A stretch of 47,272 nucleotides of DNA from the NCBI GenBank assembly GCA_913055645.1, contig CAJXLC010000014.1, positions 1-47,272 on the forward strand, written 5' to 3'. Positions 4,031 through 34,515 of this stretch are shown one piece after another; positions within the stretch are counted from its first letter, which is position 1, and each line of letters begins with the position of its first letter. Both the position numbers and the translations under genes were made by a program. Origin of the DNA: an uncultured Pseudomonadota bacterium. Its GTDB lineage: Bacteria; Pseudomonadota; Zetaproteobacteria; Mariprofundales; Mariprofundaceae. The notes under the pieces were generated by a model. It did not search any database. It saw only the letters and a program-made list of their open reading frames with translations, and was not told where the DNA came from.

Positions 4031-5292
4031 GAGGCTCCCCCTTGGGTGTCATCTTCAAAGCCCAATTTATCCATTACAGTGTTTAAATCTTTATCCCCAC
4101 GCCCAGATAAGTTAATCAATACGATTTGATTGGGTTGTATATTTGCTGCAATACGCATGCCCGCTGCCAATGCATGACTGGATTCCAAAGCTGGAATAAT
4201 GCCTTCAGCTTTGGTTAAAACTTGAAATGCTTGCAAAGCATCATCATCGGTTGCGCTATCAAGCTCCAAGCGTCCAGCTTCCATCATAGCTGCAAGCTCT
4301 GGCCCAACACCTGGATAATCCAAACCTGCAGAAATACTGTGCGTGCCTTGCACTTGCCCTTCTTTATCTTCCAGTAAATAACTTAAACTGCCATGAATAA
4401 TGCCTGGTTTGCCTTGTGCCAAAGCGGCTGCATGCTCACCCGATTCAAGTCCATGACCGGCGGCTTCAACAGCGACAAGCCGAATATCATCATCTTGTAA
4501 GGGTTGCAGTAAACCAATGGCATTGGAGCCGCCGCCAACACAAGCCACGGCAACATCAGGTAGTTTGCCTGCTTGCTCCAAGCATTGGGCGCGTGCTTCT
4601 TGTCCAATCACCGTATGAAACTGGCGCACCATCAATGGGAATGGATGTGGTCCTGCGGCTGTGCCAAAGATGTAATAGGTATCTTCACAATTAGCCACCC
4701 AAACGCGCAATGCTTCATTAACGGCATCTTTAAGTGTTGCCGTACCTGAATCGACAGGCACAACATTAGCGCCTAAGAGTTTCATGCGAAAAACATTCGG
4801 AGCTTGACGGCGAATATCTTCGCGCCCCATATAAATATCGCATTGCATATTAAACATCGCTGCAACGGTGGCAGTGGCAACGCCATGTTGCCCTGCACCT
4901 GTTTCCGCAATGACTTTCTTTTTGCCCATACGACGCGCCAATAAAGCCTGACCAATGGTATTGTTTATTTTATGTGCGCCAGTGTGATTTAAATCTTCAC
5001 GCTTTAAATAAATTTGCGCACCACCAACTTCATCAGTGAGATGTTTGGCATGATAAAGCGGTGTTGCACGACCGGCATAGTTTTTTAGTAAATCCAAGCG
5101 TTCAGTATGAAATTCAGGGTCTGCCCATGCTTCGATAAAGGCATGTTCAATTTCTTGTAGGGGTTGCATCAGTGTTTCTGCGGCAAAACAACCACCAAAC
5201 AATGTACCATTAGCCTCAAAGTGACCGCCTGCATCAGGGGCATGGGTGATGTTTAAATCGTATGTAAAATTGTATGAAGAATGGTTCGTCAT
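4027..5292 (-). CDS. trpB: Tryptophan synthase beta subunit
   Basis: TrpB is the PLP enzyme that condenses indole with serine. It carries the PLP lysine in HTGAHKINN (K108) and the phosphate-binding GGGSNAIG loop. At 421 residues it is a little longer than the typical ~400, because of an N-terminal segment before the usual PDAGGHF opening; an alternative start was not obvious. It lies five bases after trpF and overlaps trpA. No attenuator or leader peptide is seen upstream. Confidence 0.96.
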
Positions 5293-5297
5293 GCGCT

Positions 5298-5951
5298 CTA
5301 TATTCCCTTATTTGCCATATCTTTGTCGACTGTTTGCACAGCAGTTACAAAATCATGCATCTTAGCATCATCTTTAATGCCAGGCGCAGTTTCGACCCCC
5401 GAAGATACATCCAGTGCAAACCATTGGCGATGAGAAAGTGCATTTTTCACATTGGCAATGGTTAAGCCGCCAGCCAAGATTAATGGTTGCTTATGCCTAA
5501 AATCATGTAGTAATGACCAGTCAAAACTCTGACCTGTACCACCATAAACGCCTTTGGGCGCTTTGGTATCCAATAAAATGGGGCATGTATATTGTTTAGC
5601 TCGTTGTAAATCTTCTGCGGAGTTTACCGCAATCGCTTTAACCACCCGTCTGGCTTGTGCCTGACAAAACTCAGGGCTTTCATCACCATGCAGTTGCACA
5701 ACACCTAGAGGACAGCAGCTTAATACCTCATCAATGAATGATTGTTCAGGGTTCACAAAAAGTCCTACAGCAGATACAAAGGGTGGCAAGGCTCGAATAA
5801 TTGCAGCAGCTTTCATCGGCTCTATATAACGCGGTGATTTTTTATAAAAGACAAAGCCGACCGCATCCACACCCAAAGCTGATGCTGCAAGTGCATCCTC
5901 TAAACGGGTAATGCCACAAACCTTAATACGTGTGCGAATTGCTAAATTCAT
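5298..5951 (-). CDS. trpF: Phosphoribosylanthranilate isomerase
   Basis: TrpF catalyses the Amadori rearrangement of phosphoribosylanthranilate in tryptophan synthesis. The 217-residue barrel opens with the family motif KVCGIT (10-15), whose cysteine is the general base. It later has [15 protein letters not shown], holding the catalytic aspartate and phosphate-binding glycines, and LAGGLT. It is the first gene of trpF-trpB-trpA and is 41 bases from the end of folA, so transcription from the folate gene may continue into it. trpE, trpG, trpD and trpC are not in this window. Confidence 0.96.
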
Positions 5952-5992
5952 ATACGAATTCCATCATAAATAGTGATAAATGGCTACTTTTG

Positions 5993-6481
5993 CTATGGAT
6001 TTCGTTGCCAAACTTCAAAATGATAGTCGTAAGCATTTTTTTCATCGGCTTGATGGCTTTCATGTTGCGTACGATGCCAAAGTTTTAAATCATATGTAGG
6101 AAACCAAGCATCACCTTCAAAGCTTTCTTCAATATGGGTAATGTATAACTTATCAGCTTGTGGTAAAAGTAGCGTATAAATTTCAGCACCACCAATCACC
6201 ATAAGTTCGTCCGCATCAGGCACGGCAGCCTTGGCTTCATCCAGTGATTGTACAACGGTGCAGCCTTCAATCTTTAGATCTTTTTGTCGGCTTAATATGA
6301 TATTAGTGCGTTTGGGCAAAGGCTTGCCAATAGATTCAAAGGTTTTTCTTCCCATAAGAATGGGTTTGTTCATGGTGTGTTTACGAAACCATTGCATATC
6401 GGCAGGTAGTTTCCATGGTAGGGCATCGTGATTGCCAATTAAACGGTTGTTATCCATTGCCCAGATGAGTGATAGTTTCAT
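5993..6481 (-). CDS. folA: Dihydrofolate reductase
   Basis: FolA reduces dihydrofolate to tetrahydrofolate with NADPH and recycles the dihydrofolate made by ThyA. The 162-residue sequence matches the chromosomal DHFR family. It has MDNNRLIGNHDALPWKLPAD near the start with the substrate-binding acid D28, the NADPH block MGRKTFESIGKPLP, and VIGGAEIY near the centre. The ATG is preceded by AAGGACA about ten bases away. thyA lies upstream on the same strand, separated by about 200 bases filled by a nested palindrome, so the two may be transcribed together. Confidence 0.96.
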   Translation of the reverse strand: MKLSLIWAMDNNRLIGNHDALPWKLPADMQWFRKHTMNKPILMGRKTFESIGKPLPKRTNIILSRQKDLKIEGCTVVQSLDEAKAAVPDADELMVIGGAEIYTLLLPQADKLYITHIEESFEGDAWFPTYDLKLWHRTQHESHQADEKNAYDYHFEVWQRNP

Positions 6482-6689: not shown

Positions 6690-7523
6690 TTAAACGGCAA
6701 TAGGGGCGCGAATGCCTGGGTGGGATTCATAACCCTCTAAGGTGAAATCATCATAGCTGAAATCAAAGATATTTTTAATCTCAGGATTGAGTGTCATGTG
6801 AGGTAGTGAGTATGGCTCACGCGCTAGCTGTGTGTTTACTTGTTCTTTATGGTTATTATATAAATGTGCATCGCCCAAGGTATGAATAAATTCACCCGCT
6901 TCTAAGTCACAAACTTGTGCAATCATCATGGTCAGTAAGGCATAGGATGCGATATTAAATGGCACGCCTAGAAATATATCGGCTGAGCGTTGATAGAGCT
7001 GGCAAGATAGTTTGCCATCGGCAACGTAAAATTGGAAAAAAGCATGGCATGGCGGTAGCGCCATTTTATGGTTTTTTACGTTTTCTTGTGGTGCAATGGA
7101 TTCATTGGGCAAATCTGCCACATTCCATGCCGATACAATAAGTCTGCGGGAGTTTGGCTTGGATTTTATTTGGCTAATAAGCTCGGATATTTGATCGACT
7201 GTGCCGCCATTGGGTGTTGGCCAGTTGCGCCATTGATGGCCATATACAGGCCCAAGTTCGCCATCTTCGGTTGCCCACTCATCCCAAATTGTCACACCAT
7301 GTTCACGCAAGTAAGCGGTATTGGTATCACCTTTTAAAAACCATAATAATTCATGGATAATAGATTTAAGGTGCGTTTTCTTGGTGGTGACAAGCGGAAA
7401 TCCTTGTTGTAAATCAAAACGCATTTGATAACCAAATACAGATGTTGTGCCTGTGCCTGTGCGATCACTTTTTTTTGTGCCGCAATCAAGTACATATTGC
7501 ATTAAATCGAGATATGTTTTCAC
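6690..7523 (-). CDS. thyA: Thymidylate synthase (GTG start)
   Basis: ThyA makes dTMP from dUMP using methylenetetrahydrofolate. The frame is open to 7547, but the preferred start is GTG at 7523. It has GAGGGG five bases upstream and aligns exactly with the family start (VKTYLDLM against MKQYLELM of E. coli). This gives 277 residues. The catalytic cysteine is in [10 protein letters not shown] (about residue 159), and the DRTGTGT and YGHQWR blocks are present. Compared with the 264-residue E. coli enzyme, there is an insertion of about 13 residues (around [13 protein letters not shown]) just before the active-site loop. The divergent EF-hand gene starts 66 bases away. Confidence 0.95.
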
Positions 7524-7588
7524 CTTGCCCCTCGCCTGTATGTCCAAAATTGGATATGCTATCGCGGAATGATGCCACAGGAGTTCCC

Positions 7589-7894
7589 ATGCGCACAGTC
7601 ACGATACCATTGATGATGATTACAACGCTTGCATGCAGTAGTTGGGCATGGGCAGATGAGAAGGTTGGAAATGAGCCATTAACGGCAACAGATAAAATTG
7701 TTGACCGTTTTATGGAACTGGATACGGATGCCACGGAAAGCGTATCACTTGAAGAGTATTTGCTTATGGTGCAAGAGCGTGCTGAAGCCCGTTTTGCCTT
7801 GATGGATGAAAATAAAGATGGCGAAGTCAGTGCGGATGAATACCGCCAATTCTGGAAAACCCAAAAATCACAATATTATCGTTTGAAACGATAA
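7589..7894 (+). CDS. Small exported EF-hand protein
   Basis: This 101-residue protein has a Sec signal peptide (hydrophobic [15 protein letters not shown], likely cut after AWA). Two EF-hand-like loops follow: a canonical [12 protein letters not shown] and a weaker [12 protein letters not shown]. It is probably a small periplasmic Ca2+-binding protein. The ATG at 7589 was chosen over the longer open frame because CAGGAG lies five bases before it and the signal peptide starts there. It diverges from thyA and points towards cyc2, from which it is separated by repeats and a terminator. No function beyond likely calcium binding can be given. Confidence 0.85.
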
Positions 7895-7910
7895 ATAATG
7901 CCTATATCTC

Positions 7911-8072
7911 TGTCATCCTGAGCATAGCCGAGGGATATTTTACGTATGTTTCACTCATAAGATTGCTCGCAAGGTCGGAATGACATGCTAACACCCTTGT
8001 CATCCTGAGCGCAGTCAAGGGATATTTTACGCCTATAGCACGCTCAAGATTCTTGCACAAGATTGAAATGAT
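7911..8072. repeat. Cluster of family-1 hairpin repeats
   Basis: Three half-units of a dispersed repeat follow one another. TGTCATCCTGAGC...GAGGGAT is at 7911-7936. AAGATT...GGTCGGAATGACA, joined to a second GTCATCCTGAGC...AAGGGAT, spans about 7957-8023. A degenerate AAGATTCTTGCACAAGATTG begins near 8046. The middle pair is the reverse complement of the full unit at 9963-10031. The cluster fills most of the space between the EF-hand gene and the cyc2 terminator. Confidence 0.8.
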
Positions 8073-8090
8073 ATATGATATATTAGGAAT

Positions 8091-8115
8091 AAAAAAAGGG
8101 AGGCCGAAGCCTCCC
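8091..8115 (-). terminator. Rho-independent terminator of cyc2
   Basis: Read on the minus strand, a perfect 7-bp stem GGGAGGC-TTCG-GCCTCCC is followed directly by seven T residues. The UUCG tetraloop makes it a strong intrinsic terminator. It lies about 30 bases after the cyc2 stop codon. Confidence 0.93.
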
Positions 8116-8145
8116 TTTCTCAAGAATACCTTATATAAGGATATC

Positions 8146-9360
8146 TTACATCAAGAATTCAAAGCCCAAGGCTAAATCTGTAACTTTTGTATCCGCAGCA
8201 GGGACACCAGTAGATGTTTTAGCTGAACCGTAAGTCAAGTTAATACGAGCATTCTGATACAATGAATACCCAAGACCTGTTACAAATGTAGTAGTCTTAA
8301 CAGCACCAATTTTGTCACTACCAAAACCAATCATTGCAATAATGTTGCTAACAGGCTCAACAGTTGCACGCAAAGAGTAACCTGTACGGTTGTTTGTAGT
8401 GCTTAGCGGATTATATACGTTGATTTCTGTAGCAGATGAAGATTTCGCAGAAGCAACATCAGCATAGATACCATAAGACATATCACCAGCTTCACCTTGA
8501 AGCTGTGCGCTCAAACCATAACGTTTAGCAACCTGTTTAACACCAGCAATAGTTGGACTAGTAGTACCACTTACAACGATAGCACCAATACCTAATTCAG
8601 CACCACCAAGATCGAAGAAGCCTTGACCGCGAACCATAGGAGCCAAGTTCCAGTTAGTACCTAGCGTGGCATTATTGTTGATACCACCGATAGTGATTGC
8701 ACCCATATCATTAGCGTATGAAGCAGAAACACCTACTGTATTATATGGGCCTGCTGCATTAGTAGTCGCCATTGCGCCATTGATAGACACATCACCACCG
8801 TTTAACAAGCCACTATGTTGACCCCAAACACTCATCAACTGAAGACCAGCGTCTTCACCAAAACCAGTGTTGTAATAAGACAAGATAACTTTACCGTTAC
8901 CAACGTCTACAGAGTGTAACAATTGTTGGTTAGAGAAAGGACCACCAGTTGTACCATCATATTCAATAAATGCACCAGTATTAGAACCGATACGACCAGC
9001 AATCATCAACACTTGGTCAGCAGTAGTTGCGATTGATTTTGTTGTGGTAGTAATAGCACCAGTGGTAGTTTTTACATTGTGGAACTGAGGACGGAACATC
9101 GCTGTGATGTTCAAAACTGATGGGATAGAAAGATTGTCATCTTCAACCAATGCTTCTTCACCAACATCAGTGAATGCACCTTCTTTAAAAGCGCGACCGA
9201 AAGCAGCTAGTGTTGGGAATGATTGGAAATGGCAGCTCAAGCAAGCAGCACCAGTTTGACGTGCGAATGCTGGAACAGCTTCAGATGTTGTAGGTGCGAT
9301 AGAAACAGCAGAAACCGCAACAACAGCGAAAGCAGCAGCAGAAAGAAGAGTCTTCTTCAT
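8146..9360 (-). CDS. cyc2: Cyc2-type outer-membrane cytochrome-porin (iron oxidase)
   Basis: The 404-residue protein has a signal peptide (cut near SEA/VPAF). A single c-type heme motif CLSCH follows at residues 40-44, inside the Cyc2 signature PAFARQTGAAC...FGRAFK. The rest is a long beta-strand-rich region with alternating polar and hydrophobic residues, typical of an outer-membrane barrel. Cyc2 takes electrons from Fe(II) at the cell surface and passes them across the outer membrane. Size and order (heme at the N-terminus, porin after) fit the family. ATG 9360 is chosen over the longer frame because GAGG is nine bases upstream and the signal peptide begins there. It is a single-gene unit with its own terminator, flanked by family-1 repeats. 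Fe(II) oxidation is inferred from the family. Confidence 0.9.
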   Translation of the reverse strand: MKKTLLSAAAFAVVAVSAVSIAPTTSEAVPAFARQTGAACLSCHFQSFPTLAAFGRAFKEGAFTDVGEEALVEDDNLSIPSVLNITAMFRPQFHNVKTTTGAITTTTKSIATTADQVLMIAGRIGSNTGAFIEYDGTTGGPFSNQQLLHSVDVGNGKVILSYYNTGFGEDAGLQLMSVWGQHSGLLNGGDVSINGAMATTNAAGPYNTVGVSASYANDMGAITIGGINNNATLGTNWNLAPMVRGQGFFDLGGAELGIGAIVVSGTTSPTIAGVKQVAKRYGLSAQLQGEAGDMSYGIYADVASAKSSSATEINVYNPLSTTNNRTGYSLRATVEPVSNIIAMIGFGSDKIGAVKTTTFVTGLGYSLYQNARINLTYGSAKTSTGVPAADTKVTDLALGFEFLM

Positions 9361-9494
9361 GTGTAAAACCTCGTTATTATGTATTTGGCTCCGTAGAACC
9401 ATGTTGAAAAGCGTTGCTCTCAATAAGTGACCCAAGAGTCATTTAATCCAGCGAACGATGCGAACTGTGGCAAGCTTTGGGTGGTGGGTCAAGA

Positions 9495-9515
9495 TGATAC
9501 ACTTGCAGTGTGTCA
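9495..9515. promoter_or_regulatory. Palindrome upstream of cyc2, possible operator
   Basis: TGATACAC-TTGCA-GTGTGTCA is an imperfect dyad (7 of 8 arm positions pair) about 135 bases upstream of the cyc2 start. It lies between the promoter-proximal region and a family-1 repeat. Size and symmetry suit a dimeric regulator. No convincing -35/-10 pair could be assigned, so the role is a guess. Confidence 0.3.
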
Positions 9516-9537
9516 TTTTGCGACAGTGGATATTTGT

Positions 9538-9615
9538 AAGATCCCTCGGCTTCGCTCGGGATGACAGTGGTATAGGAGTGTTGGGATGTCATTCCGACCG
9601 AAGTGGAGAAATCTT
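9538..9615. repeat. Family-1 hairpin repeat, left flank of GIY-YIG gene
   Basis: The unit starts with AAGATCCCTCGG and continues through CGGGATGACA, a spacer of about 20 bases, TGTCATTCCGACC and GGAGAAATCTT. Outer and inner arms pair (AAGATC/ATCTT and GGGATGACA/TGTCATTCC), so the whole unit can fold on itself. Its first 29 bases are identical to the copy at 9963-10031 in the same orientation. Confidence 0.88.
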
Positions 9616-9638
9616 GTAGTCTACAGTTTTAAATAATA

Positions 9639-9950
9639 ATGGTCAGGCGGGAGTTTCTATTGGGTAATCGTCAATATTACGTTTATATTCTAACGAACTG
9701 GAATCATAGAGTGATGTATATTGGCATGACGAATAACTTGCATCGTCGCATATATGAGCATCAGCAACATATGGTTGAAGGGTTTACGGATAAGTATCAG
9801 GTTGGAAAGCTGGTTTACGTTGAATCGGCAACTGATGTGCATGCGGCAATTGCAAGAGAAAAACAGCTTAAGCGGTGGCGCAGGGAAAAGAAAAACAATC
9901 TTGTTGAATCAATGAACCCAGATTGGAATGATTTGAGTGCGCAGTGGTAA
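9639..9950 (+). CDS. GIY-YIG nuclease-domain protein (UPF0213/YhbQ-like)
   Basis: The 103-residue protein is a single GIY-YIG domain. It has YYVYILTN at 13-20, YIGMTNNLHRRIYEH with the conserved arginine, GFTDKYQVGKLVYVE, and AREKQLKRWRREKK with the expected catalytic glutamate, ending in NPDWNDL. These stand-alone domains are a large family that cut structured DNA; no partner domain is present. No ribosome-binding site is visible before ATG 9639. It is enclosed by two direct copies of a family-1 hairpin repeat (9538-9615 and 9963-10031), which suggests a mobile or repeat-linked unit. Confidence 0.92.
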   Translation: MVRREFLLGNRQYYVYILTNWNHRVMYIGMTNNLHRRIYEHQQHMVEGFTDKYQVGKLVYVESATDVHAAIAREKQLKRWRREKKNNLVESMNPDWNDLSAQW

Positions 9951-9962
9951 TGATAAGATTAA

Positions 9963-10031
9963 AAAGATCCCTCGGCTTCGCTCGGGATGACAAGGGCGTG
10001 AGTATGTCATTCCGACCTTGCGGAGGAATCT
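9963..10031. repeat. Family-1 hairpin repeat, right flank of GIY-YIG gene
   Basis: The copy opens with the same 29 bases as the one at 9538 and ends in TGTCATTCCGACC...GGAGGAATCTT, with a shorter spacer. It starts 12 bases after the GIY-YIG stop codon. The reverse complement of this unit matches 7957-8023. Confidence 0.88.
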
Positions 10032-12517: not shown

Positions 12518-14341
12518 TTAGATGTGTATCGCTTTATCATCCGAATCGAGGACTGATTCGTGAAGCATCTCTGATAATGTGGGATGCGGGAACATATGAT
12601 GCGCAAGTTCTTCTTCAGTTGTTTCCAATGTGCGTGCCAACTGCAAAGAAACGATTAACTCGGTGGCTTCTGCCCCAACGATATGCGCACCAAGCAACTC
12701 GCCTGTTTCAGCATCAAAAATGGTTTTCACCATGCCTTCGGTTTCTGCCAAGCCCATAGCTTTACCATTGGTGCCGTATGCCATGCGTCCAACTTTGATA
12801 TTAAGACCTTCATCTTTGCATTGTTGTTCGGTTTTACCACATGAACCCACTTGCGGCTGGCAGTAAGTGCAACCTGGTACATTGCCATAATCTACAGGAT
12901 GTGGATTGTCACCATGGATGGCTTCCACACATACAATGCCTTCATGACTTGCCACATGTGCCAAAGCAGGCGCGCCAACCACATCACCAATGGCATACAC
13001 ACCTTGATGATCGGTGCGGTAGTAGTCATCAACTTCAATTTGATTGCGCTCAACCTTCATGGCGGTGTTTTCAGCACCAATCGTGTCGGTATTGCCAATA
13101 ACGCCCACAGCCACGAGGCAAACATCACCTTCAATGCTTTGTGTTTTGTCTTTGACTGTGTATTCAACCACAGCTTTACCATCGACATTTTTCGCCGAAG
13201 AGACCATCGCACCTGTAATAATCTTAATGCCGTTCTTTTTAAAGGAACGATCCACCACTTTGGAAATTTCAGCATCCTCTAAGGGTAAGATCTGCGGCGC
13301 AGCTTCAATTACGGTTACTTCTGAACCCATGGCGTTATAAAAATACGCGAATTCCATGCCGATTGCACCAGAGCCAATGACCACCAATTTCTTGGGTAAT
13401 GACGTTGGTGCCAATGCCTGTTTGTAGGTAATGATAACTTTATTATCCACATCCATGCCTGGAAATGCACGCGCTCGCGCACCAGTTGCAACAATCACAT
13501 GTTTGGCAGTCACTTGCTTGCTGTTGCCATCGGCATCTTTGACCATGAGTTTGTTATCGGCTTCAAATGTTGCGAATCCTTCGATATGCTCAATTTTGTT
13601 TTTCTTGAATAAGAAACCAATACCACCATTTAATTTGGCTGAAATTTTACGTGAGCGCGCTACTGCCTTGACCAAGTCTGGTTTGGTTTCACTTATGCCC
13701 AAGCCCAACTCATCGCCACTGTGTTGAATGACGTTAATAATCTCGGCTGTGCGTAACAATGCTTTGGTCGGGATGCAGCCCCAATTCAGGCAAATGCCGC
13801 CCAAATGTGTGGATTCGATGCAGGCAACCTTGAAACCCAGTTGTGCAGCACGAATCGCCGCAACATAACCACCAGGCCCTGCTCCAATCACGACCACATC
13901 ATATTCACCATCGGCATTGAATACGCCAGCAGGTTTTAAATTCAATTCATGTTCATCATCCGATGTTGGAGCAGCACTTGCTGCCACGATATTTTCAACA
14001 ACATCAGCCGATGCGACCACGGGCGCAGCTTCTGGAGCAGCCTCTGTGCTTGCGCTAGGCTCGGCAATGCCTTCTGGCATATAATCATCAGGGACTTCTT
14101 CATCATCTTCGGCGATGACTGCAATCGCAGCACCAACCGGGATTAAATCGCCCTCAGCAGCAATGATTTTATGTAGCGTGCCTTCTTCAACGACTTCAAC
14201 TTCCATCGTGGCTTTGTCGGTTTCAATTTCCACCAAGACTTCACCAGAAACAAGTTCATCACCTTCTTTTTTAAGCCAGCGGGCAATTTTGCCTTCGGTC
14301 ATGGTTGGTGATAATTGGGTCATAAATACATCAATGGGCAT
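12518..14341 (-). CDS. lpd: Dihydrolipoyl dehydrogenase (E3) with N-terminal lipoyl domain
   Basis: E3 reoxidises dihydrolipoamide of the pyruvate dehydrogenase complex with NAD+. The 607-residue protein begins with a lipoyl domain (1-90, lipoyl lysine K43) and an Ala/Glu/Pro-rich linker, then the flavoprotein. FAD motif GAGPGG is at 153-158 and the redox-active disulfide C184/C189 is in GGICLNWGCIPTK. The NAD motif is GSGAIGME, and the C-terminal catalytic block is HPTLSE. The lipoyl domain is nearly identical to that of the adjacent aceF. The stretch after the central domain has extra cysteines (CTYC, SCGKTEQQC). AGAGGAA precedes the start; it is the last gene of pdhA-pdhB-aceF-lpd. Confidence 0.95.
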   Translation of the reverse strand: MPIDVFMTQLSPTMTEGKIARWLKKEGDELVSGEVLVEIETDKATMEVEVVEEGTLHKIIAAEGDLIPVGAAIAVIAEDDEEVPDDYMPEGIAEPSASTEAAPEAAPVVASADVVENIVAASAAPTSDDEHELNLKPAGVFNADGEYDVVVIGAGPGGYVAAIRAAQLGFKVACIESTHLGGICLNWGCIPTKALLRTAEIINVIQHSGDELGLGISETKPDLVKAVARSRKISAKLNGGIGFLFKKNKIEHIEGFATFEADNKLMVKDADGNSKQVTAKHVIVATGARARAFPGMDVDNKVIITYKQALAPTSLPKKLVVIGSGAIGMEFAYFYNAMGSEVTVIEAAPQILPLEDAEISKVVDRSFKKNGIKIITGAMVSSAKNVDGKAVVEYTVKDKTQSIEGDVCLVAVGVIGNTDTIGAENTAMKVERNQIEVDDYYRTDHQGVYAIGDVVGAPALAHVASHEGIVCVEAIHGDNPHPVDYGNVPGCTYCQPQVGSCGKTEQQCKDEGLNIKVGRMAYGTNGKAMGLAETEGMVKTIFDAETGELLGAHIVGAEATELIVSLQLARTLETTEEELAHHMFPHPTLSEMLHESVLDSDDKAIHI

Positions 14342-14377: not shown

Positions 14378-15703
14378 TTAAATAAGTACAGATGCTGGGC
14401 ATTCAATGTGTTTTTTCAGTGCGTTCAAATACTCTGCACCGACAGCGCCATCTACCACACGGTGATCACAAGAAAGGGTTAACGTCATCATTTTTTTCAC
14501 AACGACTTGCCCATTTTCTGCGACAGCACGTTCTTCTGTGCCACCAACTGCTAAAATCGCGCCTTCAGGTGGATTGACAATAGCATTGAATTGTTTGATG
14601 CCATACATGCCAAGGTTGGAAATGGAGAATGTACCACCTGTGTACTCTTCAGGCTTTAATGCGCCTTCACGTGCCTTACCTGCCAACTCTTTAATTTCAT
14701 TGGAAATTTCAACAATTGATTTTTGTTCTGAAAAACGCACAACGGGTGTAATCAAGCCGCCTTCAATGGCTACAGCAATAGAAATATGCGCATGTTTATG
14801 TTGGTAAGTATGGCTATCTGTCCATGATGCATTGGCAGCAGGAACATCGACCAAAGCCTTGGCAACAGCCTTTACGATAAAATCATTTACACTTAATTTG
14901 AATGCGCCATCGGCAGATTCATTAAGTTGCGCACGCAAATCCATCAACCTATCCATTTGCACATCCATGCTTAAATAGAAGTGAGGAACTTGTTGCTTGG
15001 ATTCGGTCAAACGGCGTGATATAGCTTTGCGCATCATGCTATTTTCAATCGCATCATACTCATCGGCATGGTAAGGCATGGGTCCTGTTGGTAATGGGCG
15101 TAGTGCAACAGGTGTGAATGATTGTCCACCCAAATTAATGCCACGTTTGGAGGCTTTTTCAATATCCGCTTTGACAATACGACCTTTCGGACCCGTGCCT
15201 GTAATTGCGGCGATGTTGATGCCTTTTTGTTTTGCCAAACGACGTGCCAAGGGTGATGCCTTGATGCGTTTATCGTTGGCAGCACGCACAACTTCTGCCA
15301 TATCCACTTCGACTGTTTGTGCCGTAACAGGGTCTGGTGCCGGTGTTGTAGCGATAGCTTGAGCGACGGGTTCTGGGCTTGCTGGAATATCTGCCGTTGC
15401 AGTGGTTTCCAATACAGGTGCTTCACCAGTGCTTTCAGGCATATAATCGGCTGGAACCTCTTCACCATCTTCGGCGATGACTGCAATAGCAGTACCTACA
15501 GGAATCAAAGTACCTTCTGCGGCAATAATCTTGTGCAGTGTACCTTCTTCAATGACTTCAACTTCCATGGTGGCTTTGTCGGTTTCAATTTCCACCAAGA
15601 CTTCACCAGAAACAAGTTCATCGCCTTCTTTTTTCAGCCAGCGAGCAATCTTGCCTTCGGTCATCGTAGGCGATAATTGGGTCATAAATACATCAATCGG
15701 CAT
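14378..15703 (-). CDS. aceF: Pyruvate dehydrogenase E2, dihydrolipoamide acetyltransferase
   Basis: E2 transfers the acetyl group from lipoamide to CoA and forms the core of the complex. The 441 residues run: one lipoyl domain (1-90, K43 in ETDKATME), a Pro/Ala/Thr-rich linker, a peripheral-subunit-binding domain (about 146-181, ASPLARRLAKQKG), and the catalytic domain ending in SCDHRVVDGAVG with the active-site histidine and aspartate. AGAGG precedes the ATG. Having one lipoyl domain per chain matches the alphaproteobacterial/mitochondrial form. An alternative 2-oxoacid substrate is unlikely given the E1 genes beside it. Confidence 0.95.
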   Translation of the reverse strand: MPIDVFMTQLSPTMTEGKIARWLKKEGDELVSGEVLVEIETDKATMEVEVIEEGTLHKIIAAEGTLIPVGTAIAVIAEDGEEVPADYMPESTGEAPVLETTATADIPASPEPVAQAIATTPAPDPVTAQTVEVDMAEVVRAANDKRIKASPLARRLAKQKGINIAAITGTGPKGRIVKADIEKASKRGINLGGQSFTPVALRPLPTGPMPYHADEYDAIENSMMRKAISRRLTESKQQVPHFYLSMDVQMDRLMDLRAQLNESADGAFKLSVNDFIVKAVAKALVDVPAANASWTDSHTYQHKHAHISIAVAIEGGLITPVVRFSEQKSIVEISNEIKELAGKAREGALKPEEYTGGTFSISNLGMYGIKQFNAIVNPPEGAILAVGGTEERAVAENGQVVVKKMMTLTLSCDHRVVDGAVGAEYLNALKKHIECPASVLI

Positions 15704-33309: not shown

Positions 33310-34515
33310 ATGAAAGTTCCTGAACAGATTGAAGATAAAATTTGCGAGTTGGCGGCAACAGGCAATACATTAAATTGTTATATTTATAACACCAAACCCA
33401 TGGCTGAGAAGGTTGCAAATCTCACTGCTATCATGCCAGCAGGTGTTGAAATATTTTATGCCATGAAGGCGAATCCTCATGCTGCATTTTTGCAAACAGC
33501 AAAAGATTCAGGTGTGGAAGGCATTGAGATTGCCAGTTTGGGTGAGGCGAAAAAGGCTGTAGAGGCTGGCTTCTCACCCAATCAGCTGATTTATACAGGG
33601 CCTGGGAAATCACCTGAGGAATTGCGTTGGTGTGTGCAACAAGGCATTCGAACGGTTCATATTGAATCGCTGACCGAGGCGCATCGCCTGCATAAGATTT
33701 GTATCGAGTATAATAAATTCCAAGATGTGCTGTTACGGATTAATGCTGACTTTGATATTCACGAAGCGCAGACCACCTTTTCAGGTGGCTCAAAGAAATT
33801 TGGTGTTGATGAAGAAAAACTCGATGAAGTATTGCCGCAGATTTTAGAATTGGAACATCTAAACTTTCGCGGTTTACATGTGTATGCAGCGTCAGGTGTA
33901 TTGAATGTTGATGATTTGCTTAAGAATTGTGAGTTGGTATTTCAATTAACACAAAAAATTGAAACCAATTATGCCAATGTTCGATGTGATATTATTGATT
34001 TTGGTGGTGGCTTTGGCGTTGACTACTTAGAAGAAGGACATGATTTCAACCCACAAGCTTGGGCAGATGGTCTGCGCAACATGATTGCGAAATATCATTT
34101 TGATGGTCGGCATTTTGTTTTGGAATTAGGACGTTATTTAGCGGCAGATTCAGGTTTTTTCTGTACAGAAATTCTCGACATCAAAGAATCACGCGGAAAA
34201 AAACAAGTGATTTGTGCAGGTGGCATCAATCATTTTCGTCGCCCTGCTGCATTAGGAATTAATCACCCGATGGCAATCGTTTGGATGAATAAAGCAAGGC
34301 TTTATACCTATCAAGAAAAGGTGCGTACTGAAAAGGTTTATTTTGGCGGCCCTCTTTGCACGGGAGCGGATAAGCTTGCCAATGATATTTTCATTGAAGC
34401 TGCTGATGTTGGTGATATTGCAGTGTTTGGCTTGGCTGGGGCGTATGGTTTGACGATGTCCAACCAAGCATTTTTAAGTCATGCAAAACCTGATGAGATT
34501 GTGTTAAACAGCTAA
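33310..34515 (+). CDS. Fold type III PLP decarboxylase, LysA-like
   Basis: The 401-residue protein has the alanine-racemase-fold PLP domain: lysine in FYAMKANPH, GPGKSPEEL, and the phosphate loop DFGGGFGVDY. A C-terminal domain has the catalytic cysteine in GGPLCTGAD and ends GLAGAYG...FLSHAKPDE. The position after argH and dapC suggests diaminopimelate decarboxylase. But GPLCTGAD replaces the usual GPICESGD, and HVYAASG replaces the HIGSQ block. These features recall BtrK-type or exosortase-associated decarboxylases (TIGR03099). It starts 4 bases after dapC. Confidence 0.75.
   Translation: MKVPEQIEDKICELAATGNTLNCYIYNTKPMAEKVANLTAIMPAGVEIFYAMKANPHAAFLQTAKDSGVEGIEIASLGEAKKAVEAGFSPNQLIYTGPGKSPEELRWCVQQGIRTVHIESLTEAHRLHKICIEYNKFQDVLLRINADFDIHEAQTTFSGGSKKFGVDEEKLDEVLPQILELEHLNFRGLHVYAASGVLNVDDLLKNCELVFQLTQKIETNYANVRCDIIDFGGGFGVDYLEEGHDFNPQAWADGLRNMIAKYHFDGRHFVLELGRYLAADSGFFCTEILDIKESRGKKQVICAGGINHFRRPAALGINHPMAIVWMNKARLYTYQEKVRTEKVYFGGPLCTGADKLANDIFIEAADVGDIAVFGLAGAYGLTMSNQAFLSHAKPDEIVLNS

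Follow-up and report, generated by a model that had tools for sequence, protein, structure and literature searches.

A probable Cluster 1-type cyc2 gene with a putative conserved control region and signs of barrel exchange in a Zetaproteobacterium

Results

An intact cyc2 gene forms its own transcription unit

The window, that is, the whole 47,272-nt stretch of DNA analysed here, is contig C14 of a 1.88-Mb Zetaproteobacterium genome that is 99.5% complete. On its minus strand lies a complete cyc2 gene, which runs as one open frame from the ATG at 9360 to the stop codon ending at 8146; the plus-strand translation of the same interval is closed by many stops. The initial annotation had reported a complete Cyc2 gene between these positions, and its coordinates hold, but it had left the strand unstated. 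The features of the gene and its 3′ flank are as follows.

8146..9360, minus strand: cyc2 coding sequence including the stop codon, 404 aa (open reading frame and translation); single copy in the genome
9277..9360, minus strand: signal peptide, codons 1-28, with probable cleavage after TSEA (sequence; 98% DNA identity with the same-genus genomes G001 and G002)
9229..9243, minus strand: heme c motif CLSCH, residues 40-44, inside AVPAFARQT...CLSCH-FQSF-PTL (sequence; family consensus in PMC8406198)
8152..9117, minus strand: predicted 16-strand beta barrel, residues 82-403 (AlphaFold2; Foldseek matches to OprP, OprO, PorB and other porins)
8092..8121, minus strand: intrinsic terminator GGGAGGC-UUCG-GCCUCCC-U7 (-26.4 kcal/mol, z = -4.3)

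The signal peptide, MKKTLLSAAAFAVVAVSAVSIAPTTSEA (residues 1-28), was recognised by inspection. The published Cyc2 consensus consists of AxPxFAR[Q/K][T/Y], CxxCH, and PxL four residues downstream (PMC8406198), and the window protein, which reads AVPAFARQT-GAA-CLSCH-FQSF-PTL, carries this defining motif; its 404 aa exceed the Cyc2 minimum of 365 aa, and it has the single CxxCH of the family. A match this close to the family motif, in an open frame of 404 aa, goes far beyond what chance would give. Neither Pfam nor NCBIfam had a real match to the protein.

Because its neighbours are convergent downstream (the EF-hand gene) and divergent upstream (the GIY-YIG gene), cyc2 constitutes a lone transcription unit. 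This agrees with the monocistronic arrangement in the initial annotation, whose strong terminator after the gene likewise corresponds to the stable hairpin listed above. An automatic promoter and terminator scan detected neither this terminator nor a cyc2 promoter, probably because base pairing of the terminator stem extends into the U tract and the -10 element is weak. The annotation had further stated that the window holds no other cytochrome, oxidase or carrier gene; consistently, no second CxxCH was found in any credible ORF of the window, and oxidase, cytochrome and carrier families were absent among the other window proteins scanned with Pfam, in which the short ORFs were covered in part.

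Two kinds of repeat were also observed. Interspersed TCATCCTGAGCGAAGCGAGGGATCTT-type repeats (7898-8051, 9538-9620 and 9962-10022) lie in inverted orientation on either side of cyc2 and adjoin the small GIY-YIG nuclease gene (9639-9950), where they might aid local recombination. A 277-bp direct repeat, 87% identical (14065-14341 and 15427-15703), represents the lipoyl-domain ends of adjacent dihydrolipoamide dehydrogenase-like and E2 acyltransferase genes.

The product is a Cyc2 of a known type

The best relatives of the protein are 45-63% identical to it. Its Cyc2 relatives in named records belong to Zetaproteobacteria, including Mariprofundus EBB-1 and Ghiorsea, and family-level relatives of the window genome carry the same Cyc2 proteins; most of the relatives compared are metagenome-assembled genomes (MAGs). 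A Cyc2 profile was matched by 38 of 39 good genomes of the order. In a tree whose sequences bear no published cluster label, the window protein groups with 42 Zetaproteobacterial Cyc2s, those of Mariprofundus EBB-1 and Ghiorsea among them, and is separate from the FARKYG paralogues. From its motif and its named iron-oxidiser relatives, the protein would be of the Cluster 1 type and, by homology, probably an outer-membrane Fe(II) oxidase.

AlphaFold, run with five relatives, predicted exactly 16 strands over residues 82-403, with pLDDT mostly 70-90; for residues 1-80, where the heme would sit, pLDDT was below 50 and nothing in the model is reliable. The best Foldseek matches in the PDB were general porins, among them OprP (2o4v, E = 2.3e-10) and OprO (4rjw, E = 1.9e-9), both of which are reported templates for the Cyc2 of Mariprofundus PV-1. 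This fold comparison found porins where a phmmer sequence search of the protein against the PDB had given nothing real. The initial annotation had recognised Cyc2 by a signal peptide, one CLSCH and a porin-like barrel in a single chain, and had named phylogeny and structure prediction as checks; the inspected leader peptide, the single CxxCH, the 16-strand model with its porin matches, and the position inside the Zetaproteobacterial Cyc2 tree all bear this out. The cyc2 gene is ordinary and intact, and its protein is a Cyc2 of an already known type.

The electron acceptor, which had been supposed to lie outside the window, has plausible candidates elsewhere in the genome, which was read in targeted stretches: contig C4 carries cbb3-type oxidase subunits (COX1 and FixO) together with one monoheme and one diheme c cytochrome, contig C6 carries RuBisCO, and other contigs encode additional c-type cytochromes, whose heme motifs number from one to eight. 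A gene set of this kind has been proposed for the Cyc2 pathway in Zetaproteobacteria (PMC7029218). By homology and genome content, dissolved Fe(II) would give up an electron to the N-terminal heme of Cyc2 at the cell surface, and this electron would then pass to a periplasmic c cytochrome and on to the cbb3-type oxidase, both encoded on those other contigs. A weak match to a NiFe-hydrogenase in the genome covered the first 67 positions only and was not counted as a hydrogenase.

A palindrome and a hairpin precede cyc2 in most relatives

The promoter, operator and leader hairpin of cyc2 had gone unnoticed in the initial annotation. We aligned 44 cyc2 leaders, from which the following features of the window were assigned.

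9509..9525, minus strand: putative operator site 1, palindrome TGTCGCAAAATGACACA, centred at about -60 (one mismatch to TGTGNCANNNTGNCACA; conserved in 41 leaders)
9485..9501, minus strand: putative operator site 2, weaker dyad TGTATCATCTTGACCCA overlapping the -35 element (leader comparison)
9487..9492, minus strand: -35 element TTGACC, with a 17-nt spacer to the -10 element (each TTGAC base in 40-41 of 41 aligned leaders)
9464..9469, minus strand: -10-like element CACAGT, with transcription probably starting near 9457 (near-fixed spacing from the -35 element across leaders)
9386..9401, minus strand: leader hairpin TGGTTC-UACG-GAGCCA, ending 25 nt before the ATG (covariation; covariance-model matches all at cyc2)
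9369..9375, minus strand: Shine-Dalgarno sequence AACGAGG (sequence)

The -10 element is poor, agreeing at three of six positions, and across leaders such an element usually lies 17-18 nt after the -35. The consensus palindrome, TGTG-N-CA-N3-TG-N-CACA, is located 16-17 bp upstream of the TTGAC -35 in 41 of the 42 leaders with enough flank, and two of the three exceptional leaders have too little flank to judge. A joint score of palindrome and -35 reached at least 13 of 17 in 41 of the 44 leaders, as against 0.3% of shuffles, always with a spacing of 16 or 17; in those 41 leaders, TGT...ACA is invariant. Genome-wide, the exact palindrome has 19 matches in 78 genomes, 13 of which are at cyc2, and the reversed control has three. 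The six matches away from cyc2, which fall within genes or at unrelated loci, seem to be chance occurrences or a toxin-antitoxin operator. The palindrome was not seen in front of the Cluster 3-type paralogues that were inspected, nor in front of the three homologues from outside the order. A CRP-type site was set aside because the spacing is TGT-N11-ACA rather than N10.

The hairpin ends 23-29 nt before the ATG in most leaders, and its loop is YNCG in 24 of the 44. Among 17 genomes, 99% of the pair cells are standard and four of the six pairs show compensatory changes on both sides, although the choice of sequences, made by eye for the 6-4-6 form, means that the counts favour that structure. 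None of 500 shuffles reached the pairing score, and registers slid along the leader pair at 7-56%. The G-U pairs common in the hairpin point to an RNA element and not to a DNA site for a protein. A covariance model returned 25 matches at E ≤ 0.006, all at cyc2 and five of them in genomes outside the model building; the match in G004 falls at a contig edge beside gshA, where cyc2 itself is cut off. In other genera a hairpin occupies this position but has a very different sequence (in G026, TAGCTTATC-GCT-GATAAGCTA), and the canonical small hairpin is absent from the same-genus G005, G006 and G010 and from some others, in which the operator is retained.

Taken singly, the window hairpin folds no better than shuffles, only 10 of the 44 leaders rank above the 95th percentile of their shuffled counterparts, and Rfam gave no match for the cyc2 leader, sub-threshold small-RNA matches falling at the terminator; the case for the hairpin is made by its covariation and its genome-wide specificity for cyc2. 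Lying just upstream of the ribosome site, this short element probably stabilises the mRNA or tunes its translation. Separately, a conserved stretch, GCAGGTCGAAGA...GGAGGGGA, occurs between promoter and hairpin in G012, G014, G021, G029, G097 and others, is absent in the window, and may belong to a longer structured leader.

The barrel departs from the history of its surroundings

On the Cyc2 tree (46 sequences), the window protein falls with those of the same-genus G005 and G006, near the Ghiorsea-type genus g8, and the Cyc2s of other members of the window genus fall in three other places; holding the genus together was rejected (AU test, p = 6e-66). Trees of the species markers gshA and trpB (a 992-aa gene was tried and proved unsuitable) split the genus into G005, G006, G008 and G010 on one side and the rest, including the window genome, on the other. 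DNA identity varies along the locus. The 130 nt upstream of cyc2 are 87% identical to G002 and 77% to G001, as against about 49% to G005 and G006, and the signal peptide is 98% identical to the former pair versus 87% to the latter, whereas the barrel is only 43-58% identical to these sister species, G001 and G002, and 58-67% to G005 and G006. Maximum chi-square analysis gave one best position.

9127, minus strand: best recombination breakpoint, at about codon 78, at the junction of cytochrome domain and barrel (2 of 2000 permutations for G002 versus G005; 0 of 2000 for G002 versus G006)

For the pairs G001/G005, G002/G005 and G002/G006, the best break lies at nt 233-235, codon 78, just before the first strand (0 to 5 of 2000 permutations); for other pairs the break was blunter or came later, and a control triple with G010 as query scored too, so that the exact position is uncertain. 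There are signs in the sequences that the barrel half was swapped in from another lineage. The simplest reading would be that homologous recombination replaced it in place with the barrel of another Zetaproteobacterial allele and left the promoter, leader and signal peptide as they were.

The wider locus is nonetheless the same: G002 has thyA, the EF-hand gene, cyc2 and gshA in a row, and cyc2 is next to gshA in several further genomes. In L045 and L046, the loci of G005 and G006 with the closest Cyc2s, the gene has been relocated beside a homologue of the window gene at 33310-34515 (Orn/DAP/Arg decarboxylase family) rather than gshA. In L047 (G003), two identical 1361-bp tandem copies of cyc2 (4681-6041 and 6907-8267) enclose a GIY-YIG gene and have no palindrome upstream; both a real duplication and an assembly artefact are possible.

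Discussion

How might this locus work? We consider it highly probable that it encodes a Cluster 1-type Cyc2 passing electrons from Fe(II) to a periplasmic c cytochrome and a cbb3-type oxidase, and that the gene forms its own transcription unit with a sigma70-type promoter, a tandem operator, a leader hairpin and a recombined barrel. The tandem operator, centred near -60 and again about 24 bp further downstream, where it overlaps the -35 element, would probably be bound by an activator dedicated to cyc2, a role suggested by its position. We lean slightly towards the further idea that such a cyc2-only activator, acting on the tandem palindrome, forms together with the conserved structured mRNA leader a cassette that stays fixed while the barrel is swapped between lineages.

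The palindrome might instead be a part of the core promoter that serves no dedicated regulator, with the hairpin as a purely passive stabiliser of the mRNA. In favour of this, the hairpin follows a long leader and leaves the ribosome site unmasked; nevertheless, we think this account rather doubtful, because the invariance of TGT...ACA (41 of 41), its fixed distance to the -35 and the second, weaker copy about 24 bp away form the usual layout of activator sites, and the palindrome does not recur at other genes among the 78 genomes. We regard it as less probable still that the barrel exchange reflects a chimera of metagenome assembly, or fast evolution with a misleading tree placement. In its favour, several of the relatives are MAGs in many pieces, the G002 sequence is ambiguous at bases near the heme domain, and barrels evolve fast. 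Yet the barrel sits between flanks that both match the sister species (thyA at 86% and the EF-hand gene at 73% on one side, gshA at 85% on the other), so that a chimera would need two chimeric joins; the scatter of Cyc2 covers many genomes, and rate alone does not explain why the window barrel is closer to G005 and G006 than to the sisters.

The substrate may also be questioned, since Keffer et al. warn that proof as iron oxidases is lacking for some Cyc2 homologues (PMC8406198), and Mn(II), an electrode, reduced sulfur or an organic compound could be imagined in place of Fe(II). We judge this very improbable: the window protein lies among Zetaproteobacterial Cyc2s that include those of the isolate genus Mariprofundus, the Cluster 1 Cyc2 of PV-1 oxidises Fe(II) and cyc2 genes respond to Fe(II) in mats (PMC8406198, PMC7029218), and the RuBisCO and cbb3-type genes fit chemolithotrophic growth.

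Cyc2 is the outer-membrane protein through which marine iron bacteria draw electrons from dissolved iron. It serves as a marker for environmental iron oxidisers, its gene often ranks with the most highly expressed in iron mats, and the authors of that work named its regulation as still to be tested (PMC7029218). The palindrome and hairpin make this question testable, and a sharply conserved operator tied to cyc2 offers a means of capturing the regulator and of recognising when iron oxidation is switched on. In the open-access literature on cyc2 with promoter, regulator or untranslated region, which was the scope of our search, neither element is described; a palindromic DNA switch and a leader RNA hairpin common to almost all relatives are apparently new to the literature. 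The transfer of whole Cyc2 genes has been published (PMC12442345), in a paper that nowhere uses the word "recombination". Specialists may find both the control region and the exchange of domains new, and this exchange is also a warning that Cyc2 trees, especially those driven by the barrel, depart from species history within Zetaproteobacteria.

With the Cluster 1 Cyc2s, including that of Mariprofundus ferrooxydans PV-1 (PMC8406198, PMC7029218), the window protein shares the signal peptide, the single CxxCH within the Cyc2 consensus, the 16-strand barrel, a Zetaproteobacterial host, and a genome with a cbb3-type oxidase and a diheme c cytochrome; the protein differs only by sequence divergence, and the operator and leader hairpin are absent from the descriptions found. 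The Zetaproteobacterial paralogues at L059, L060 and L061, which by motif and host appear to be of Cluster 3, are likewise fused cytochrome-barrel proteins, but they have an AxPVFARKYGMACxSCH motif and about 450 aa, form a separate clade (100/100) and lack the palindrome upstream; this type was not found in the window genome, which has one cyc2 only. Several relatives of the same family also encode free-standing proteins of 77-98 aa that combine a signal peptide with a heme head resembling that of Cyc2 (ATPAFSRQTGADCRSCHF...GLNAFGRAFK) and have no barrel (L096:2453-2746, minus; L095:2075-2344, plus; L098:2025-2309, plus; L097:2359-2634, minus; L094:2254-2484, minus), in three relatives directly 3′ of a MerR-family regulator gene.

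LysR-type activators bind sites of the form T-N11-A, with a strong site near -65 and a weak one near -35. The cyc2 control region resembles these in layout only, with a strong palindrome near -60 that contains an invariant T-N11-A and a weaker dyad overlapping the -35. In Acidithiobacillus ferrooxidans (PMC5506826), RegB/RegA likewise controls the transcription of rus and other iron-oxidation operons from a position upstream of their -35 elements. For RegA it was not possible to define a binding motif, whereas the cyc2 gene described here is preceded by a sharp palindrome tied to cyc2 alone.
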